A DNA stretch of 9,565 nucleotides from positions 1-9,565 of the forward strand of contig JAFYGL010000700.1 in the NCBI GenBank assembly GCA_017543165.1, in the 5' to 3' direction. The position numbers and the translations under genes were made by a program. The notes beneath the pieces were generated by a model. It saw only the letters and a list, made by a program, of their open reading frames with translations, was not told where the DNA came from and made no database searches. Origin of the DNA: Victivallales bacterium. GTDB lineage: Bacteria; Verrucomicrobiota; Lentisphaeria; Oligosphaerales; Oligosphaeraceae. Positions 3,035 through 9,565 of the stretch are shown piece by piece. The number at the start of each line of letters is the position of its first letter. The first letter of the stretch is position 1.

Positions 3035-3145
3035 AAAGCTGACAAAAGGTAAAGTAAATTTTGTTAATTACAAGCCAATCTATTGAAAATTTCCACGAAA
3101 ATGCGATTTAATTGCAAATTTCGCAGAACTTGTTTGAATTAAGAA

Positions 3146-3614: not shown

Positions 3615-4949
3615 TTATATGCCAAAGTCCATGTATTGCCTGGTTCCAAGGAGCACGCTTTGCCAAAGTTGGCTGCACGGGTCGATTTTGCGTCTGGCAA
3701 GTGTGGCAAGTGGAATTGGCACGTATGTGAAATAACCCTGCCAGTTGCCAACCACCGCATCGGTCATTCCCGCCATGGCGGCATGCACTGCATGCTGTGC
3801 CAGATGCGAGCAGAAAATGGAATCCATGGCATTTGCTTCAGTGCTGCGAATGTTGTAGCTGGGATCAAAGTATTTCACATTGATTTCCTTTCCCCTCTCT
3901 TTGAAGTAGCTGGTGATGGCGTCCTTTAGCAAGGGGCCTATGTCTTTGTGCAGTTTGTTGCCAGACTTGTCATGGACGTCGTTCCCGCTTTCAAACAGGT
4001 TCTGCCCCGCGCCTTCCGCGACGACCACCACGGCGTGGTGCTTCCTGTCCAGCCTGCGTTCCAGTGCAGTCAGGAAACCATGTTCGCCTTCCAGGACGAA
4101 GTCCAGTTCAGGTATCAGGCAGAAATTGACCACGGAGCTTGCCAGGCTTGCGTTTGCGGCGATGAAGCCCGAGTCCCTGCCCATGAGCTTTACCAGACCT
4201 ACGCCGTTCAAGCAGCCCTTCGCCTCGTTGTGCGCACATTGGATGATGGGCGCGGCATTTTGCACGGCGGTCTCGAATCCAAAGGTCTTGTCCATGAAAT
4301 TCAGGTCGTTGTCTATGGTCTTCGGAATGCCGATTACGCTGATGGGCAGTTTTCTCTTTTCGATTTCCTGGTGGATTGCGTGGGCGCCCTTCTGGGTGCC
4401 GTCGCCCCCGATTGTGAAGAGTATGTTTATGCTCAGGCGGTCAAGCGTGCGTACCATTTCCTCCACTGACTGTTCGCCCCTTGAAGAGCCAAGGATTGAG
4501 CCGCCCTTTGTGTGTATGTCGTCCACCACGTCAGGTGTTAGAATGAGCGGTTTGAGGCCGTACTTGGGGTTGAGGCCGCTGTATCCGTACTGGATGCCGT
4601 AGATGTTGTCCACGCCATAGCTATAATAGAGAGTGTTGACCAGAGACTTGATGACGTCGTTCAGGCCAGGGCACAGGCCACCGCATGTGGCTATTGCGAC
4701 GCGCACCCATACTGCATCGAAATACAACTGCTTTCTGGGACCCGCCGCCTGGAAGGCAGGTACCTTCTTGCCTTCCTTGATGAGGCGCTCGTTTTCCGCA
4801 TTGTCTGCGCAATAGCTAATGGTTTCGCTGTCATCGACAAAAATCACATCCTTCAAATGTGATTCCAGTGTGGGAGTGCCTACGCGCTTGATGCTGAAGT
4901 CCAGCTTGGAGATTTCATCGAGAGGCAAACTCATATTCTGCGGTAGCAT
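3615..4949 (-). CDS. pfkA: 6-phosphofructokinase, probably ATP-dependent (trypanosome/TP0108-like type)
   Basis: The enzyme phosphorylates fructose 6-phosphate to fructose 1,6-bisphosphate, a committed step of glycolysis, in the cytoplasm. The 444 residues exceed the classical bacterial form (about 320), with an N-terminal extension of about 85 residues as in the longer family. Motifs in order: GGLCPGLN (90-97), GGDGTQKGA (181-189), PKTIDND (209-215, catalytic Asp), MGRDS (256-260), PE (280-281), EGAGQ (312-316) and DPSYNIRS (362-369). Gly in GGDGT, rather than the Asp of pyrophosphate enzymes, favours ATP. Lys in PKTIDND is shared with both pyrophosphate enzymes and the ATP-using trypanosome type, so the donor is inferred. 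AGGAG stands 7 bases before the ATG. arfB follows after three bases. Confidence 0.93.
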   Translation of the reverse strand: MLPQNMSLPLDEISKLDFSIKRVGTPTLESHLKDVIFVDDSETISYCADNAENERLIKEGKKVPAFQAAGPRKQLYFDAVWVRVAIATCGGLCPGLNDVIKSLVNTLYYSYGVDNIYGIQYGYSGLNPKYGLKPLILTPDVVDDIHTKGGSILGSSRGEQSVEEMVRTLDRLSINILFTIGGDGTQKGAHAIHQEIEKRKLPISVIGIPKTIDNDLNFMDKTFGFETAVQNAAPIIQCAHNEAKGCLNGVGLVKLMGRDSGFIAANASLASSVVNFCLIPELDFVLEGEHGFLTALERRLDRKHHAVVVVAEGAGQNLFESGNDVHDKSGNKLHKDIGPLLKDAITSYFKERGKEINVKYFDPSYNIRSTEANAMDSIFCSHLAQHAVHAAMAGMTDAVVGNWQGYFTYVPIPLATLARRKIDPCSQLWQSVLLGTRQYMDFGI

Positions 4950-4986
4950 GATTTTTCTCCTGTATTTATGCAGTATGTGCGCAATA

Positions 4987-4992
4987 ATTATA
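4987..4992 (-). promoter_or_regulatory. Candidate -10 box for pfkA at the repeat edge
   Basis: A perfect TATAAT on the minus strand lies 37 bases upstream of the pfkA ATG, giving a predicted leader of about 30 bases. It straddles the outer end of the inverted-repeat element. No good -35 box lies 16-18 bases upstream; the TTGAAA inside the repeat end is too close (7 bases). The match may therefore be incidental, or the promoter may depend on an activator. Confidence 0.35.
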
Positions 4993-5014
4993 GAGGTAAT
5001 TTCAAAACATCCAG

Positions 5015-5041
5015 TGTGAGCGCCTTAGCGGCGCTCACTCA
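5015..5041 (+). repeat. REP-like hairpin, left copy
   Basis: This is the perfect core of the left arm. GTGAGCGCC (5016-5024) and GGCGCTCAC (5030-5038) make a 9-bp stem closed by the loop TTAGC. The whole 27-base core recurs, exactly inverted, at 5140-5166. The core is G+C-rich between A+T-rich ends, as in REP sequences. Confidence 0.8.
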
Positions 5042-5139
5042 AGTTGGCCAACTTGCATGTTTTCTTCTGTTGGACAGCCACACAGGTTGGCCAACCCGCA
5101 TGGAATTACCTGGGGCTTTATCTTACAACTTGGTCAACA

Positions 5140-5166
5140 TGAGTGAGCGCCGCTAAGGCGCTCACA
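5140..5166 (-). repeat. REP-like hairpin, right copy (inverted)
   Basis: This is the exact inverse of the left core, with the same 9-bp stem and 5-base loop. The full identity of the two cores, against about 76% identity in the outer arm segments, suggests that the core is maintained by selection or by conversion while the ends drift. Confidence 0.8.
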
Positions 5167-5203
5167 TTGGCATTTTTTAAATAACCTCTATGGATAATTC
5201 CAT

Positions 5204-7798
5204 CTATTTGACAACGAAGTTCATAAGGCGGCCAGGCACCGCGATTAGTTTGACCACGGTCTTGCCTTCCAGCGCTTCTGCCACGGCCTGGTTTTGTTTT
5301 GCAAGCGCGACCATTGCATCCTTGTCTGCCTGTGCAGGCATCATGATGCGGGCCTTTGGCTTGCCATTGACTTGAACCAGGATTTCCGCTTCGTCCAGTT
5401 TGGTTTTCGCCTCGTCGTATGTGGGCCACTTCTCGTATGCGAGGGTATCAGTATGCCCCAGGCGCTGCCAAAGTTCCTCTGCGATATGGGGGGCCATTGG
5501 GCTGATGAGGAGCACCATTGTCTCCATGGCGGCTCTGTTGCGCTTCTTCAGGCGTGAAAGCTCGTTGAGTGCAATCATCAGCTGGCTTATCGCCGTGTTG
5601 TAGCTGATTGCCTCCAGGTCTTCCGTGACTTTCTTGATTGTCTGGTGCATGATGCGTTCCACATCCTTCGGCAGTGGTTCGTCGCAGAGTTCAGGGGCCA
5701 GATTGCCTGTGTTTATGTCCACGATGGAGCGCCACAGCTTGTTGAGGAAGCGGTTCACGCCTTCGACACCTTCCGTGTTCCATGGCTTGACTTCCTGCAG
5801 CGGGCCCATGAACATCTCGTAGAGGCGGAAACTGTCCGCCCCGTATTTTTGGATGATGTCGTCTGGATTCACCACATTCTTCAGTGACTTGGACATCTTG
5901 GCGGGCAGCATTGTGAGTTTTTCGCCTGTTTCCTTGTGGTAGAAGCAGTCGTCCTCGCGTTTTTCAACAAGGTCGTTTGGAACAAGGACGCCGCGTGTGT
6001 CCTTGTAGGATATGCCCAGAATCATTCCCTGGTGGATAAGGCGCTTCCATGGTTCTGGCGTGGAGACCAGTCCCAGGTCATAGAGCACCTTGTGCCAGAA
6101 ACGGGAATACAGCAGGTGCAGGACGGCGTGTTCTGCGCCTCCGATGTACAAATCCACTGGCATCCAGTATTTTTCCTTTTCTGGATCCCAGCCTTGCTTG
6201 TCGTTATGCGGGTCGATGTAGCGCAGGTAGTACCAGCATGAGCCAGCCCATTGCGGCATGGTATTGGTCTCCCGCTTGCCCTTCATGCCAGTTTCCTTGT
6301 CTGTGTAGTCCAGCCATTTTGTGGCGCGCGCCAGAGGCGGCTCGCCTGTTGCCGTGGGCTTGTAGTCTTCCATTTCAGGTAGCACCACTGGCAATTCGCT
6401 TTCGGGAACCAGCTTGATGCTGCCGTCCTCGTAGTGCACCAGCGGGAATGGTTCGCCCCAGTAGCGCTGGCGGGAGAACAGCCAGTCCCTCAGCTTGAAG
6501 TTCACGGTTGGAGTGCCGATGCCCTTCTTGTGCAGCCATTCGATGATGGTCTTCTTCGCATCCGCCACGGAAAGGCCGTCCAGCGAAACCTCCTGGTTTG
6601 ACGAGTGGAAAAGGACGCCGTTCCCAGTCCAGCAAACCTTGCCTTCCAGGATGTCCTCCAGCTTAAGGCCTTTTGCCTCCGCTTCTTCCTTGGTTGGCTT
6701 CAGGATGCAGATGATTGGTATGTTGAACTTTGTGGCGAAATCGAAGTCTCGGTCATCGTGGGCGGGGACTGCCATGATGGCGCCAGTGCCGTAGCTTATC
6801 AGCACATAGTCTGAAATCCAGATTGGAATCTTTGCGCCGTTGACGGGGTCGATTGCGTATGCGCCAGTGAACACGCCTGTCTTGTCCTTTGTGCCCTCGG
6901 TCCTGTCCATGTCTGACTTGGTGCGCGTGATTGCCACGTATTCGTCCACTGCGGCTTTCTGCTCTGGCGTGGTGAGTTTTTCCACCAGCGGATGTTCAGG
7001 CGCCAGCACCATGTAGGTTGCGCCGAACAAGGTATCGGGCCTGGTAGTATAGACTCTTATCTTGTCCTCATGTCCCTCCACCTGGAAGTCCACTTCCGCG
7101 CCAGTGGATTTTCCAATCCAGTTGCGCTGCATTTCCTTGGTGCCTTCAGGCCAGTCAAGGCCGTCGATGCCAGCCAGCAGCTGCTCTGCATACTTGGTTA
7201 TGCGGAGCACCCATTGCCTGATGGGTTTCCTTTCCACTGGGAAGTTGCCCACTTCGGAGCGACCATTGATGACTTCCTCGTTTGCCAGGACCGTGCCAAG
7301 CGCGGGGCACCAGTTGACTGGCTGCTGCGATTCGTATGCCAGTCCCTGCTCATACAGCTTGCAGAAAATCCACTGCGTCCACTTGTAGTATGCGGGGTCA
7401 GTTGTGTTGATTTCCCTGTCCCAGTCAAAGCTGAAGCCGAACGCCTCCAGCTGTCTTTTGAAAACGGAAATGTTCTTTGCCGTGGTCACTGCGGGATGCG
7501 TGCCAGTCTTGATTGCATATTGTTCCGCGGGGAGGCCGAATGCGTCCCAGCCCATGGCATGCAGAACGTTGTAGCCGTTCATGCGCTTGAAGCGGCACCA
7601 GATGTCCGATGCCGTATATCCTTCGGGATGCCCCACGTGAAGGCCTGCGCCTGATGGGTATGGGAACATGTCCAGCACGTACAGTTTCTTGCGTGAATAG
7701 TCGCAGTCAACTGCCTTGAATGTCTTGTGTTCCTGCCAGAATTTCTGCCATTTCGGTTCGATTTCAGCAGGGTTGTAATTGTAGTTGTTCTCGCTCAT
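5204..7798 (-). CDS. leuS: Leucyl-tRNA synthetase
   Basis: LeuRS charges tRNA-Leu with leucine using ATP, in the cytoplasm, and removes mischarged amino acids by editing. The product is 864 residues from the ATG, the normal bacterial length. The class I signature [12 protein letters not shown] has the HIGH-type motif HVGH at residues 54-57. The CP1 editing domain shows TTRPDTLFG (251-259) and [18 protein letters not shown] (about 337-354), including the conserved editing Asp. KMSKS is at 634-638, followed by the anticodon-binding helical domain and the small C-terminal domain ending in NFVVK. An in-frame TTG at 7810 is possible but has no Shine-Dalgarno sequence; the ATG has a weak TGGA 7 bases upstream. 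It starts 18 bases after the stop of the upstream membrane-protein gene, so the two are probably co-transcribed. Confidence 0.98.
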
Positions 7799-7816
7799 TT
7801 TTGTGTCCAAATACTG

Positions 7817-9565
7817 TTATGCATTGCCGCCTGTCGCCAATGGGGTTTCCATTTCGAAAATGCCCTCCATGTCCTTGCCCAGGTAGCCTTCGGGTGTTTC
7901 AACTTGGATCGTGACTCCTTCTTCATTCAGTGTCAGGTTTTCAAGGAAATACATTGCGTCTTCTTTGCTCAGGCAGGAGTATTTGTAGCAGAGCATGATG
8001 CTGCCGTCTTCCGTGCGGATTTCCTCGCGGCCCAGGTCCTTGATGTCGATGTTCTGTTCCGCCATGTTTGGCATTTCCAGTTGTACCGATGGTTCCGTGC
8101 TGACCTTGAAATACTGTGCATTGGGCAATTCAGGCATGACAGCCGTCGCCTCTCGCCAAGGCGCGTAGTGCAGGTCTGTGCCGCCGATGAAGGCGATTTC
8201 CTTGCCATTGTGGGGGTACGTTCCATAGTCGATGTTCTTGGAGCATTTCAGTGCCCCGTTGGGCAGTGCGCTTATGTAGCTGAGTTGCAGCAATGCGTTT
8301 CTTGCCTCTTCTTCATTGGGGAACATGTATGTCACGTACTTGAAGTTTTCAGGGTCGGCGTTTGCCTTGTCCCAGAACGCCTTCTGCACTGCGCCCTTGC
8401 CTTCGAAGAAGCTGGTGAATTTCTTTTCGTCCTTCTTCCGTTTGATTATGATGTATGCGACGCATCCAGCCGCAAGGACTATGACACCTGCAATTATGCC
8501 AATGATGGCGCCCATGCCAATGATGGGTTCGGGCGTCTCCTCATCGATGACGGGCTTCTGCTTCCTTGCGTTCTTTGCCGCTTCACGCTCTTTCCTTTGC
8601 CTTTCCGCCTCTTCCGCCTTCTGCTTGCGAAGTTCTTCCTCCTCCTTCTTCTTGGCCTCTTCAGCCAGACGCTTTTGCCTTGCCTCCTCCTGTTTCTTCA
8701 ATACTTCAGTCGGGTTTAGGTGCAATGGTGGAGGATATGCGGAGTTGGACAATTGAATTGTGTTTGACTGGGCGTGGGCTATTTCAGAATGGATCCTTCC
8801 TTCTGCCAGCCTTTCCTGCTCCTGTTCCTGGCTGAAGATGGCCTTTGCGTTTTTGGCGAGTTGCTCAAGGAGTTCGGTGGGATTAAGCCATGCCCCGTCC
8901 AGATAGGTGAAGCCTCTTTCCTCGTTTATTGCGGTGAAATCCTTCAATGTGCTCTGCATGATTTCATTTTCATTTTTCTCAATGAACTCCTTCCTTCCAT
9001 CTGCAGCGGCGAATCTTTGATTCCTGATGAATGTTTTGCGGACCTTTTCTGTGGCGGCCTGGTCGAATTTCAGAATTTCCTCTTCATTGCCAGCCACGCT
9101 GGCCATGTCCTCCCTGCGAATGCTGCTTTGCCCTATGCGCAGATACCCATTGCGCTCACCTTTGAATACGCCTTCGATTTTAGACGGATACTGGGGGTTT
9201 GTCCTGTAGAGCACCTTTACTCGCTCGCCGACTTTGTAAAGAGGGTACTTCTTCTCTGCCATTGCCTCCAATTCAGCATCAGAAGCAAGAGGAAATGCCT
9301 TTTCCGCAGCCTTTTCTATGCGTGAACGTGCCTCAAGCAGGCAGTCATCCACAGTGTATGGCCTGGAATTGGCGATGTAGTTTTTCCATGCGGAAGATGT
9401 CTGCTTTTCAATTGTCTGGGCTGCTGCACTGGTAGTTGCATTTGGATTTTTCCTGTAGTACTTCAGCAACGTACTTTCTAGTTGCTCGACTCTTTGTTTG
9501 GAACGTTCGCTGCCAGGTATGCTGGTAGGCAGTGTAAGCTCTGCATACGCCACGGCAGCCGCCAG
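7817..9565 (-). CDS. Large exported/membrane protein of unknown function, 5' end outside window
   Basis: I do not recognise a named family. The frame is open to the window edge and begins LAAAVAYAEL, which looks like the end of a signal peptide cleaved after AYA; an in-frame GTG at 9553 is therefore probably not the start. The visible 582 codons show, from the edge: a helical region; a small SH3-like segment around residues 107-154 (YKVGERVKVLYRTN, YLRIGQSSIRREDM); the segment GFTYLDGAWLNPTELLEQ (about 218-235); a highly charged Lys/Glu/Ala helix or coiled coil (about 288-335); one transmembrane helix (about 348-374) followed by KRKKDEKK; and a C-terminal alpha/beta domain of about 200 residues. 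By the positive-inside rule the C-terminal domain is cytoplasmic and the N-terminal part periplasmic. A bitopic sensor or scaffold is possible, but nothing catalytic is visible. Confidence 0.9.
   Translation of the reverse strand: MAAAVAYAELTLPTSIPGSERSKQRVEQLESTLLKYYRKNPNATTSAAAQTIEKQTSSAWKNYIANSRPYTVDDCLLEARSRIEKAAEKAFPLASDAELEAMAEKKYPLYKVGERVKVLYRTNPQYPSKIEGVFKGERNGYLRIGQSSIRREDMASVAGNEEEILKFDQAATEKVRKTFIRNQRFAAADGRKEFIEKNENEIMQSTLKDFTAINEERGFTYLDGAWLNPTELLEQLAKNAKAIFSQEQEQERLAEGRIHSEIAHAQSNTIQLSNSAYPPPLHLNPTEVLKKQEEARQKRLAEEAKKKEEEELRKQKAEEAERQRKEREAAKNARKQKPVIDEETPEPIIGMGAIIGIIAGVIVLAAGCVAYIIIKRKKDEKKFTSFFEGKGAVQKAFWDKANADPENFKYVTYMFPNEEEARNALLQLSYISALPNGALKCSKNIDYGTYPHNGKEIAFIGGTDLHYAPWREATAVMPELPNAQYFKVSTEPSVQLEMPNMAEQNIDIKDLGREEIRTEDGSIMLCYKYSCLSKEDAMYFLENLTLNEEGVTIQVETPEGYLGKDMEGIFEMETPLATGGNA

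Follow-up and report, generated by a model that had tools for sequence, protein, structure and literature searches.

An element located between two housekeeping genes, leuS and pfkA, of a gut bacterium of the Victivallales is probably a nested pair of selfish elements, in which an extragenic REPIN resides inside a TIR1 MITE of a kind that is accompanied by 2-bp target duplications. In the window (the whole 9,565 nt stretch of DNA that was analysed) this composite extends for 198 bp from position 4992 to position 5189, as delimited by comparison of its arms, by the target duplication and by the junction between its parts. The MITE begins with the terminal repeat TIR1 (AGAGGTAATTTCAAAAC, 4992-5008, plus strand), a 17-mer that is also dispersed in genomes G001-G004, and ends with a diverged copy recognized by sequence comparison (5173-5189, minus strand). 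These bounds were chosen because the dinucleotide AT stands outside both terminal repeats, at 4990-4991 and at 5190-5191, and thereby forms a probable 2-bp target duplication, although a match of this kind has a 1 in 16 probability of arising by chance alone, which counts against the composite reading. The enclosed REPIN (5014-5167) is composed of two inward-facing REPs that together span 150 bp (5016-5165). REP 1 (5016-5046, plus strand) carries its hairpin at 5016-5038 followed by the inner flank TCAAGTTG, and REP 2 (5135-5165, minus strand) carries its hairpin at 5143-5165 together with its inner flank. Three direct-repeat copies of 24 nt, which are spaced by 43 nt and include TTGGCCAA-type palindromes, lie inside the REPIN (5036-5145).

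The two flanking genes, which had been named leuS and pfkA in a first-pass annotation of this DNA, are identified as such by matches to TIGR00396 (leuS, 5204-7810, minus strand, 1115.6 bits) and NF005301 (the 6-phosphofructokinase gene pfkA, 3615-4949, minus strand, 625 bits). The element, including its duplication, begins 12 nt from the leuS stop codon, and 42 nt separate the pfkA start codon from the MITE end. The minus strand at 7817-9553 also encodes a protein of 578 amino acids in which one can discern by eye a charged region and a hydrophobic stretch that resembles a transmembrane segment, and for which no Pfam or NCBIfam match was found at E 0.001.

The first-pass annotation described the stretch from 4990 to 5191 as a REPIN with 66-base arms, a perfect 27-base core and two hairpins of 9 bp with TTAGC loops, and recomputation bears out this description of the sequence. 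The arms (4990-5055 and 5126-5191, 66 nt each) match at 57 of 66 positions, and thus are 86% complementary, both by repeat search and by direct comparison. The longest perfect run between them is 27 nt (5015-5041). Hairpin 1 has the form GTGAGCGCC-TTAGC-GGCGCTCAC with 9 bp, and hairpin 2 likewise has 9 bp and the loop TTAGC. A 221 nt stretch folds with a z-score of -11.2 as DNA of the plus strand and -12.6 as RNA of the minus strand, and none of 200 dinucleotide shuffles folded as well for either nucleic acid. The assignment as a REPIN, in comparison, stands for the inner part of the stretch only, as each arm corresponds to a MITE end over its outer ~24 nt and the whole is therefore composite.

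When genome contigs were scanned with the pfkA protein, the best of the 30 loci recovered (L001, 98% protein identity) came from the goat-rumen Victivallales draft RGIG3456 (G001). The window and this genome share 91.3% identity in a leuS-side alignment of 2188 nt and 89.0% in a pfkA-side alignment of 1564 nt and, judged by these alignments, the genome is that of a sister species of the window species. The high copy number expected of a REPIN is observed there: 122 sites conform to the hairpin pattern with up to three mismatches compared with 5 for a reversed control, two of the 122 belonging to another repeat on contig C409, and when the inner flank TCARGTTG is also required, 89 sites (44 plus, 45 minus) remain compared with none for the control. 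Because of this copy number, chance can be excluded as the origin of the hairpin. The counts are lower bounds because contigs of this draft break at the repeats, with C699, C130, C452, C405, C497 and C240 (at both ends) terminating inside or next to a REP copy; the search patterns also require a loop of 5 nt and so undercount REPs such as the one at L001. In eight other genomes, the hairpin pattern yielded 4 to 42 matches, which is 0.4 to 2.6 times the number given by their own controls. Among 98 genomes queried with the REPIN, for each of which the best eight candidates at most were scored, G001 was the sole one with a match at E 0.001 or better. In viral contigs, searches for subfamilies A and B of the REP (defined below) gave no exact hairpin match. 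The REP population thus appears to be lineage specific, being found here only in the window species and its sister.

We examined the arrangement of 92 REPs fetched from G001, of which 88 have no more than three mismatches (the whole-genome oriented search gave 89 rows). There are 18 cases of neighbours less than 400 bp apart, of which 15 face inward, three lie on the same strand and none faces outward. Inverted pairing, which the REPIN assignment had anticipated, is thus evident in these 15 pairs but does not extend to 62 of the 92 REPs, which have no detected inward partner and either are single or have a partner that was not found. The inward pairs span 107, 123, 123, 130, 148, 148, 149 (four pairs), 150, 176, 190, 191 and 236 bp, such that seven of the 15 fall within 148-150 bp, and the window pair measures 150 bp. 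The spans of 190, 191 and 236 bp fit the presence of one or two extra 43 nt modules, and the window REPIN has three module copies. Placement of the REPs in the sister genome is extragenic, as had also been anticipated, with 85 of the 92 located outside ORFs of at least 100 amino acids; of random positions drawn from these stretches, in comparison, 86.4% are inside.

An alignment of 91 REPs, made from 89 of the 92 from G001 (three without flank were left out) and the two of the window, reveals that the hairpin is maintained, as its stem covaries. Six of the ten stem pairs have changed on both sides, and 97.1% of cells are paired. Cells with two-sided changes number 62, compared with 16.4 in shuffles, which do not preserve the relatedness between REP copies, and with at most 10 in slid controls. 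The main switch in the stem converts GTGA..TCAC to GTGG..CCAC. The foot GTGG..CCA[CT] is present in 37 of the 91 REPs and GTGA..TCA[CT] in 42, including both window REPs, whose GTGA differs from the canonical GT[AG]G. In general, the REP unit comprises 31 nt, with a 9-10-bp hairpin whose foot is GTGA or GTGG, followed by TCA[A/G]GTTG. Two subfamilies can be distinguished by eye: subfamily A, to which the window REPs belong, is associated with TTGGCCAA modules, and subfamily B with GTTGCCTTAGCGG. The TTAGC loop occurs among the aligned REPs only in the window and at locus L089.

Some REPs depart from this organization. Symmetric copies that carry the outer flank at either end (L162:2062, L167:1019, L171:141 and L178:1487) look as if the interior of a REPIN had been deleted. 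At L090, L093, L095, L163 and L173 a complete REP is immediately bordered on its outer side by a truncated one of the same orientation, and these may be either REPINs inserted into an older REP or products of slippage.

The outer repeat has a distribution of its own. With one mismatch allowed, the TIR1 17-mer marks 296 ends in four genomes (36 in G001, 148 in G002, 53 in G003 and 59 in G004), five ends in G011 and G013 together, and none in G005, G006 and G016, whereas the reversed control gave one match in all nine genomes searched. Seventeen TIR1 elements that hold no REP were observed in G001-G004, having been hand-picked from lists of matches. A 2-bp duplication is present in 13 of 22 rows of TIR1 MITEs, which measure 46 to 190 bp, compared with ~1.4 expected by chance; after removal of one nested row and of one element that appears twice, the figure is 12 of 20. 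The nine rows that lack an exact 2-bp duplication include a composite at locus L109. From these sequence comparisons, the outer ~24 nt of the window arms constitute the terminus of a distinct MITE family, which is also carried by more distant Victivallales. Inspection by eye of the matches listed for G002 (100 of its 148 ends) gave no autonomous TIR1 element. Five elements of 46-52 bp (L150, L180, L185, L188 and L189) are near-palindromic MITEs that consist of two 17 nt ends and a short centre. We also considered the outer repeat as a TIRYT repeat, and rejected this assignment since at none of 33 loci scanned did it flank a Y1 gene on each side; at L088 such a gene has a TIR1 MITE as a neighbour on a single side.

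The association between the two elements is not confined to the window. The junction between MITE and REPIN, AAAACATCCA-TG-GAGCG, is common to the window and three G001 loci, namely L109, L103 and L089 (where the end is decayed). Recurrence of the same junction at other loci argues that the composite moved as one. In addition, a 114-bp TIR1 MITE at L107 holds a single REP and is bordered by a CT duplication. Among 91 outer flanks of G001 REPs (one of the 92 being too short to assess), 20 carry a MITE terminal repeat, which is TIR1 in two cases, TIR2 in nine and TIR3 in nine, whereas these repeats occur in 0.07%, 0.19% and 0.42% of random 45-mers, respectively; the comparison is not blind because TIR2 and TIR3 were drawn from the same flanks. 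REPINs are also found by themselves, as 12 of the 15 pairs in G001 have none of the three terminal repeats outside, one of these (on C130) reaching the contig end at one side. Because most pairs lack known terminal repeats outside, we regard the REPIN as a separate unit. The composite would then have entered the leuS-pfkA spacer in the manner of a MITE, mobilized in trans by a TIR transposase, and free-standing REPINs would move as single-stranded hairpins through the action of a RAYT-type HUH Y1 enzyme. More generally, we tentatively raise the possibility that REPs of this lineage spread in two ways, alone as REPINs and as the cargo of MITEs with at least three types of terminal repeats that are mobilized by ordinary TIR transposases.

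The strongest competitor to this scheme holds that no RAYT is involved, and that the REPs spread solely by riding in TIR MITEs as passengers and through recombination or slippage. The first-pass annotation looked to a RAYT gene flanked by the window hairpin, and none was encountered at 31 of 43 Y1 matches, including all three of the fragmented draft G001; at these 31 the REP complete with its inner flank was likewise absent. The palindrome, with up to four mismatches, matched at four of these 31 loci. The matches at L068 (on C409), with two and three mismatches, were rejected as part of another repeat that lacks the inner flank, and those at L059, L074 and L075 have four mismatches. A looser search permitting six edits added one match, near a Y1 gene on C547; the Y1 genes of both C409 and C547 are surrounded by other hairpins. 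On C409 (L126:1-1130), an IS200-like Y1 gene is located between CCCGGGTGAGCGCCC-type hairpin repeats that have opposite order on the two sides. Inspection by eye of seven stretches recognized no Y1 gene between neighbouring REPs.

One RAYT-like gene is present on contig C111 of G001, with an NF047646 score of 67.7 bits that is below the cut-off of 80. It is flanked on both sides by GTAGCCAGCGCG hairpins, which also occur within its reading frame (L128:2190-3130). This hairpin has 43 matches in G001, some of them overlapping, compared with none for the control, and 7, 4 and 4 matches in G002, G003 and G004 compared with 3, 2 and 1 for their controls. On these sequence features, the gene and its hairpins look like a second, RAYT-linked REP system of the GTAG type, separate from the window REP. 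Both the failure to find a cognate RAYT in G001 and the excess of MITE ends in REP outer flanks (20 of 91, each type being found in less than 0.5% of random 45-mers) favour spread without a RAYT. This scheme is nevertheless unlikely, given that 12 of the 15 pairs have no MITE end outside, that contig breaks at the repeats of this fragmented draft could have cost it a flanked RAYT and, as a point given little weight, that a truncated subfamily-B REP resides just upstream of the RAYT-like gene (L128, about 3100-3130).

The spacer was compared among relatives by a scan of as much as 500 nt of the sequence preceding pfkA at 27 of the 30 loci, the three loci with partial matches being left out. No REP was detected by this pattern scan, and L003 of genome G003 was the sole locus with MITE ends, one clear and one decayed TIR1 element lying there in a row (L003:460-630). 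The spacer at L001 has no TIR1 but contains a subfamily-B REP, GTGGGCGCC-AAAC-GGCGCCCAC, perhaps with a decayed partner, which the scan missed because its hairpin loop is 4 nt. The remaining 25 of the 27 upstream regions carry neither REP nor TIR1. The leuS-pfkA spacer has received such elements more than once. The TIR1 ends at L003 allow a history in which the spacer was first occupied by a TIR1 MITE, whose central loop was subsequently entered by a REPIN, and the REPs that reside in G001 inside MITEs of two other terminal-repeat types look as if MITE hairpins were targets for them. We consider this order of events quite improbable, however, because TIR1 is absent from the 500 nt that precede pfkA at the closer sister locus L001, and because the MITE-REPIN junction recurs at other loci.

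Arrival of a ready-made composite must also be weighed against a further alternative, namely that the whole of 4990-5191 is a plain REPIN inserted by a RAYT, with REP arms of 66 nt whose outer 24 nt are a long REP tail. The arms do pair across all 66 nt and the sister genome does hold REPINs. Yet the outer repeat is missing from 12 of the 15 REPIN pairs in G001, and in G001-G004 it forms inverted pairs of 46-190 bp without the hairpin. This interpretation is disfavoured because its two parts have separate distributions, and we judge it very improbable. The 2-bp duplications in 13 of 22 outer-repeat rows also speak against it, since HUH transposition is not expected to leave a 2-bp target duplication.

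A transcribed copy of the composite would form a strong RNA hairpin between leuS and pfkA, and the very strong structure predicted (-111.7 kcal/mol), together with the location of the two genes on one strand, might point to a conserved leader, riboswitch or terminator of a leuS-pfkA operon, but this is exceedingly improbable: Rfam gave no hit to the window at gathering scores, no terminator-like site and no T-tract were found in 4850-5300, the element is absent here from all relatives scanned except L001, which has a different REP, and G001 contains the hairpin at over 100 further sites. The absence of REPs and MITEs in most relatives indicates that the structure is not conserved at leuS-pfkA, and a pfkA leader or terminator is rejected on the basis of the Rfam, terminator and upstream scans. 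Copies confined to the region upstream of pfkA in relatives, which the first-pass annotation had named as evidence against a REPIN, were not seen, as the hairpin is dispersed in G001 and 27 loci were scanned.

REPINs were defined in Pseudomonas fluorescens SBW25, where RAYTs are single-copy genes that seemingly do not move themselves and are proposed to move REPINs (PMC3116915). The elements described here have in common with those of SBW25 their organization as inverted REP doublets, extragenic location, preferred span and hairpin formation, as well as frequent singlets and more than one REP family per genome (PMC3116915). They differ in that a RAYT lies beside each REP group in SBW25 and none was found here, and in that the REPIN is also found inside a TIR MITE. 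One subfamily, with 5′ GTGG and 3′ CCAC, resembles the double-foot REPs of TnpAREP subclass 2.4, and the RAYT-like gene of G001 holds REPs in its reading frame as in that subclass, although the window foot is GTGA/TCAC instead of GT[AG]G (PMC6006769). The same source suggests that double-foot REPs could come from central deletion of an inverted dimer, and our symmetric forms resemble such products. As with the GTAG and CGTC super-families and the TIRYT repeats, the repeats in question are high-copy hairpins that also occur in the PVC group (PMC3733652). The window REP is tagged neither GTAG nor CGTC, however, and the outer repeat, unlike TIRYT repeats, has 2-bp duplications and was not seen to flank a Y1 gene on each side at the 33 loci scanned. 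With TIRs of 17 bp, lengths of 46-190 bp and 2-bp duplications, it is like bacterial MITEs that have TIRs and short target duplications, which are described in part in PMC3733652.

The composite differs from usual bacterial MITEs in carrying a REPIN as internal cargo, and no autonomous partner was seen among the G002 ends listed. Degenerate REPs joined to unrelated hairpin repeats have been described in P. putida and P. fluorescens (PMC3733652). The first-pass annotation considered a REPIN layout outside the proteobacteria to be of interest in itself; REPs are already known in the PVC group, including GTAG repeats in O. terrae of the Verrucomicrobia (PMC3733652), and what stands is the population in Victivallales. 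A literature search that covered few subscription papers found no earlier report of a REPIN-like population in Victivallales, and nothing relevant on REPINs or REPs combined with MITEs or on RAYTs or MITEs in Lentisphaerae. What is new here is therefore the nesting of a REPIN in a MITE and the host group, the kind of repeat itself being known.

A REPIN-like population of the Victivallales is thereby added to those known. Packaging of a REPIN in a MITE would provide a second vehicle for REPs, and this vehicle would leave a scar in the form of a duplication. The missing RAYT of CGTC repeats is left as an open point in PMC3733652, and a MITE route could help to explain REP families that have no visible RAYT. 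If REPs do spread both alone and as MITE cargo, the latter route would let them persist and jump after the loss of their RAYT, or without it.
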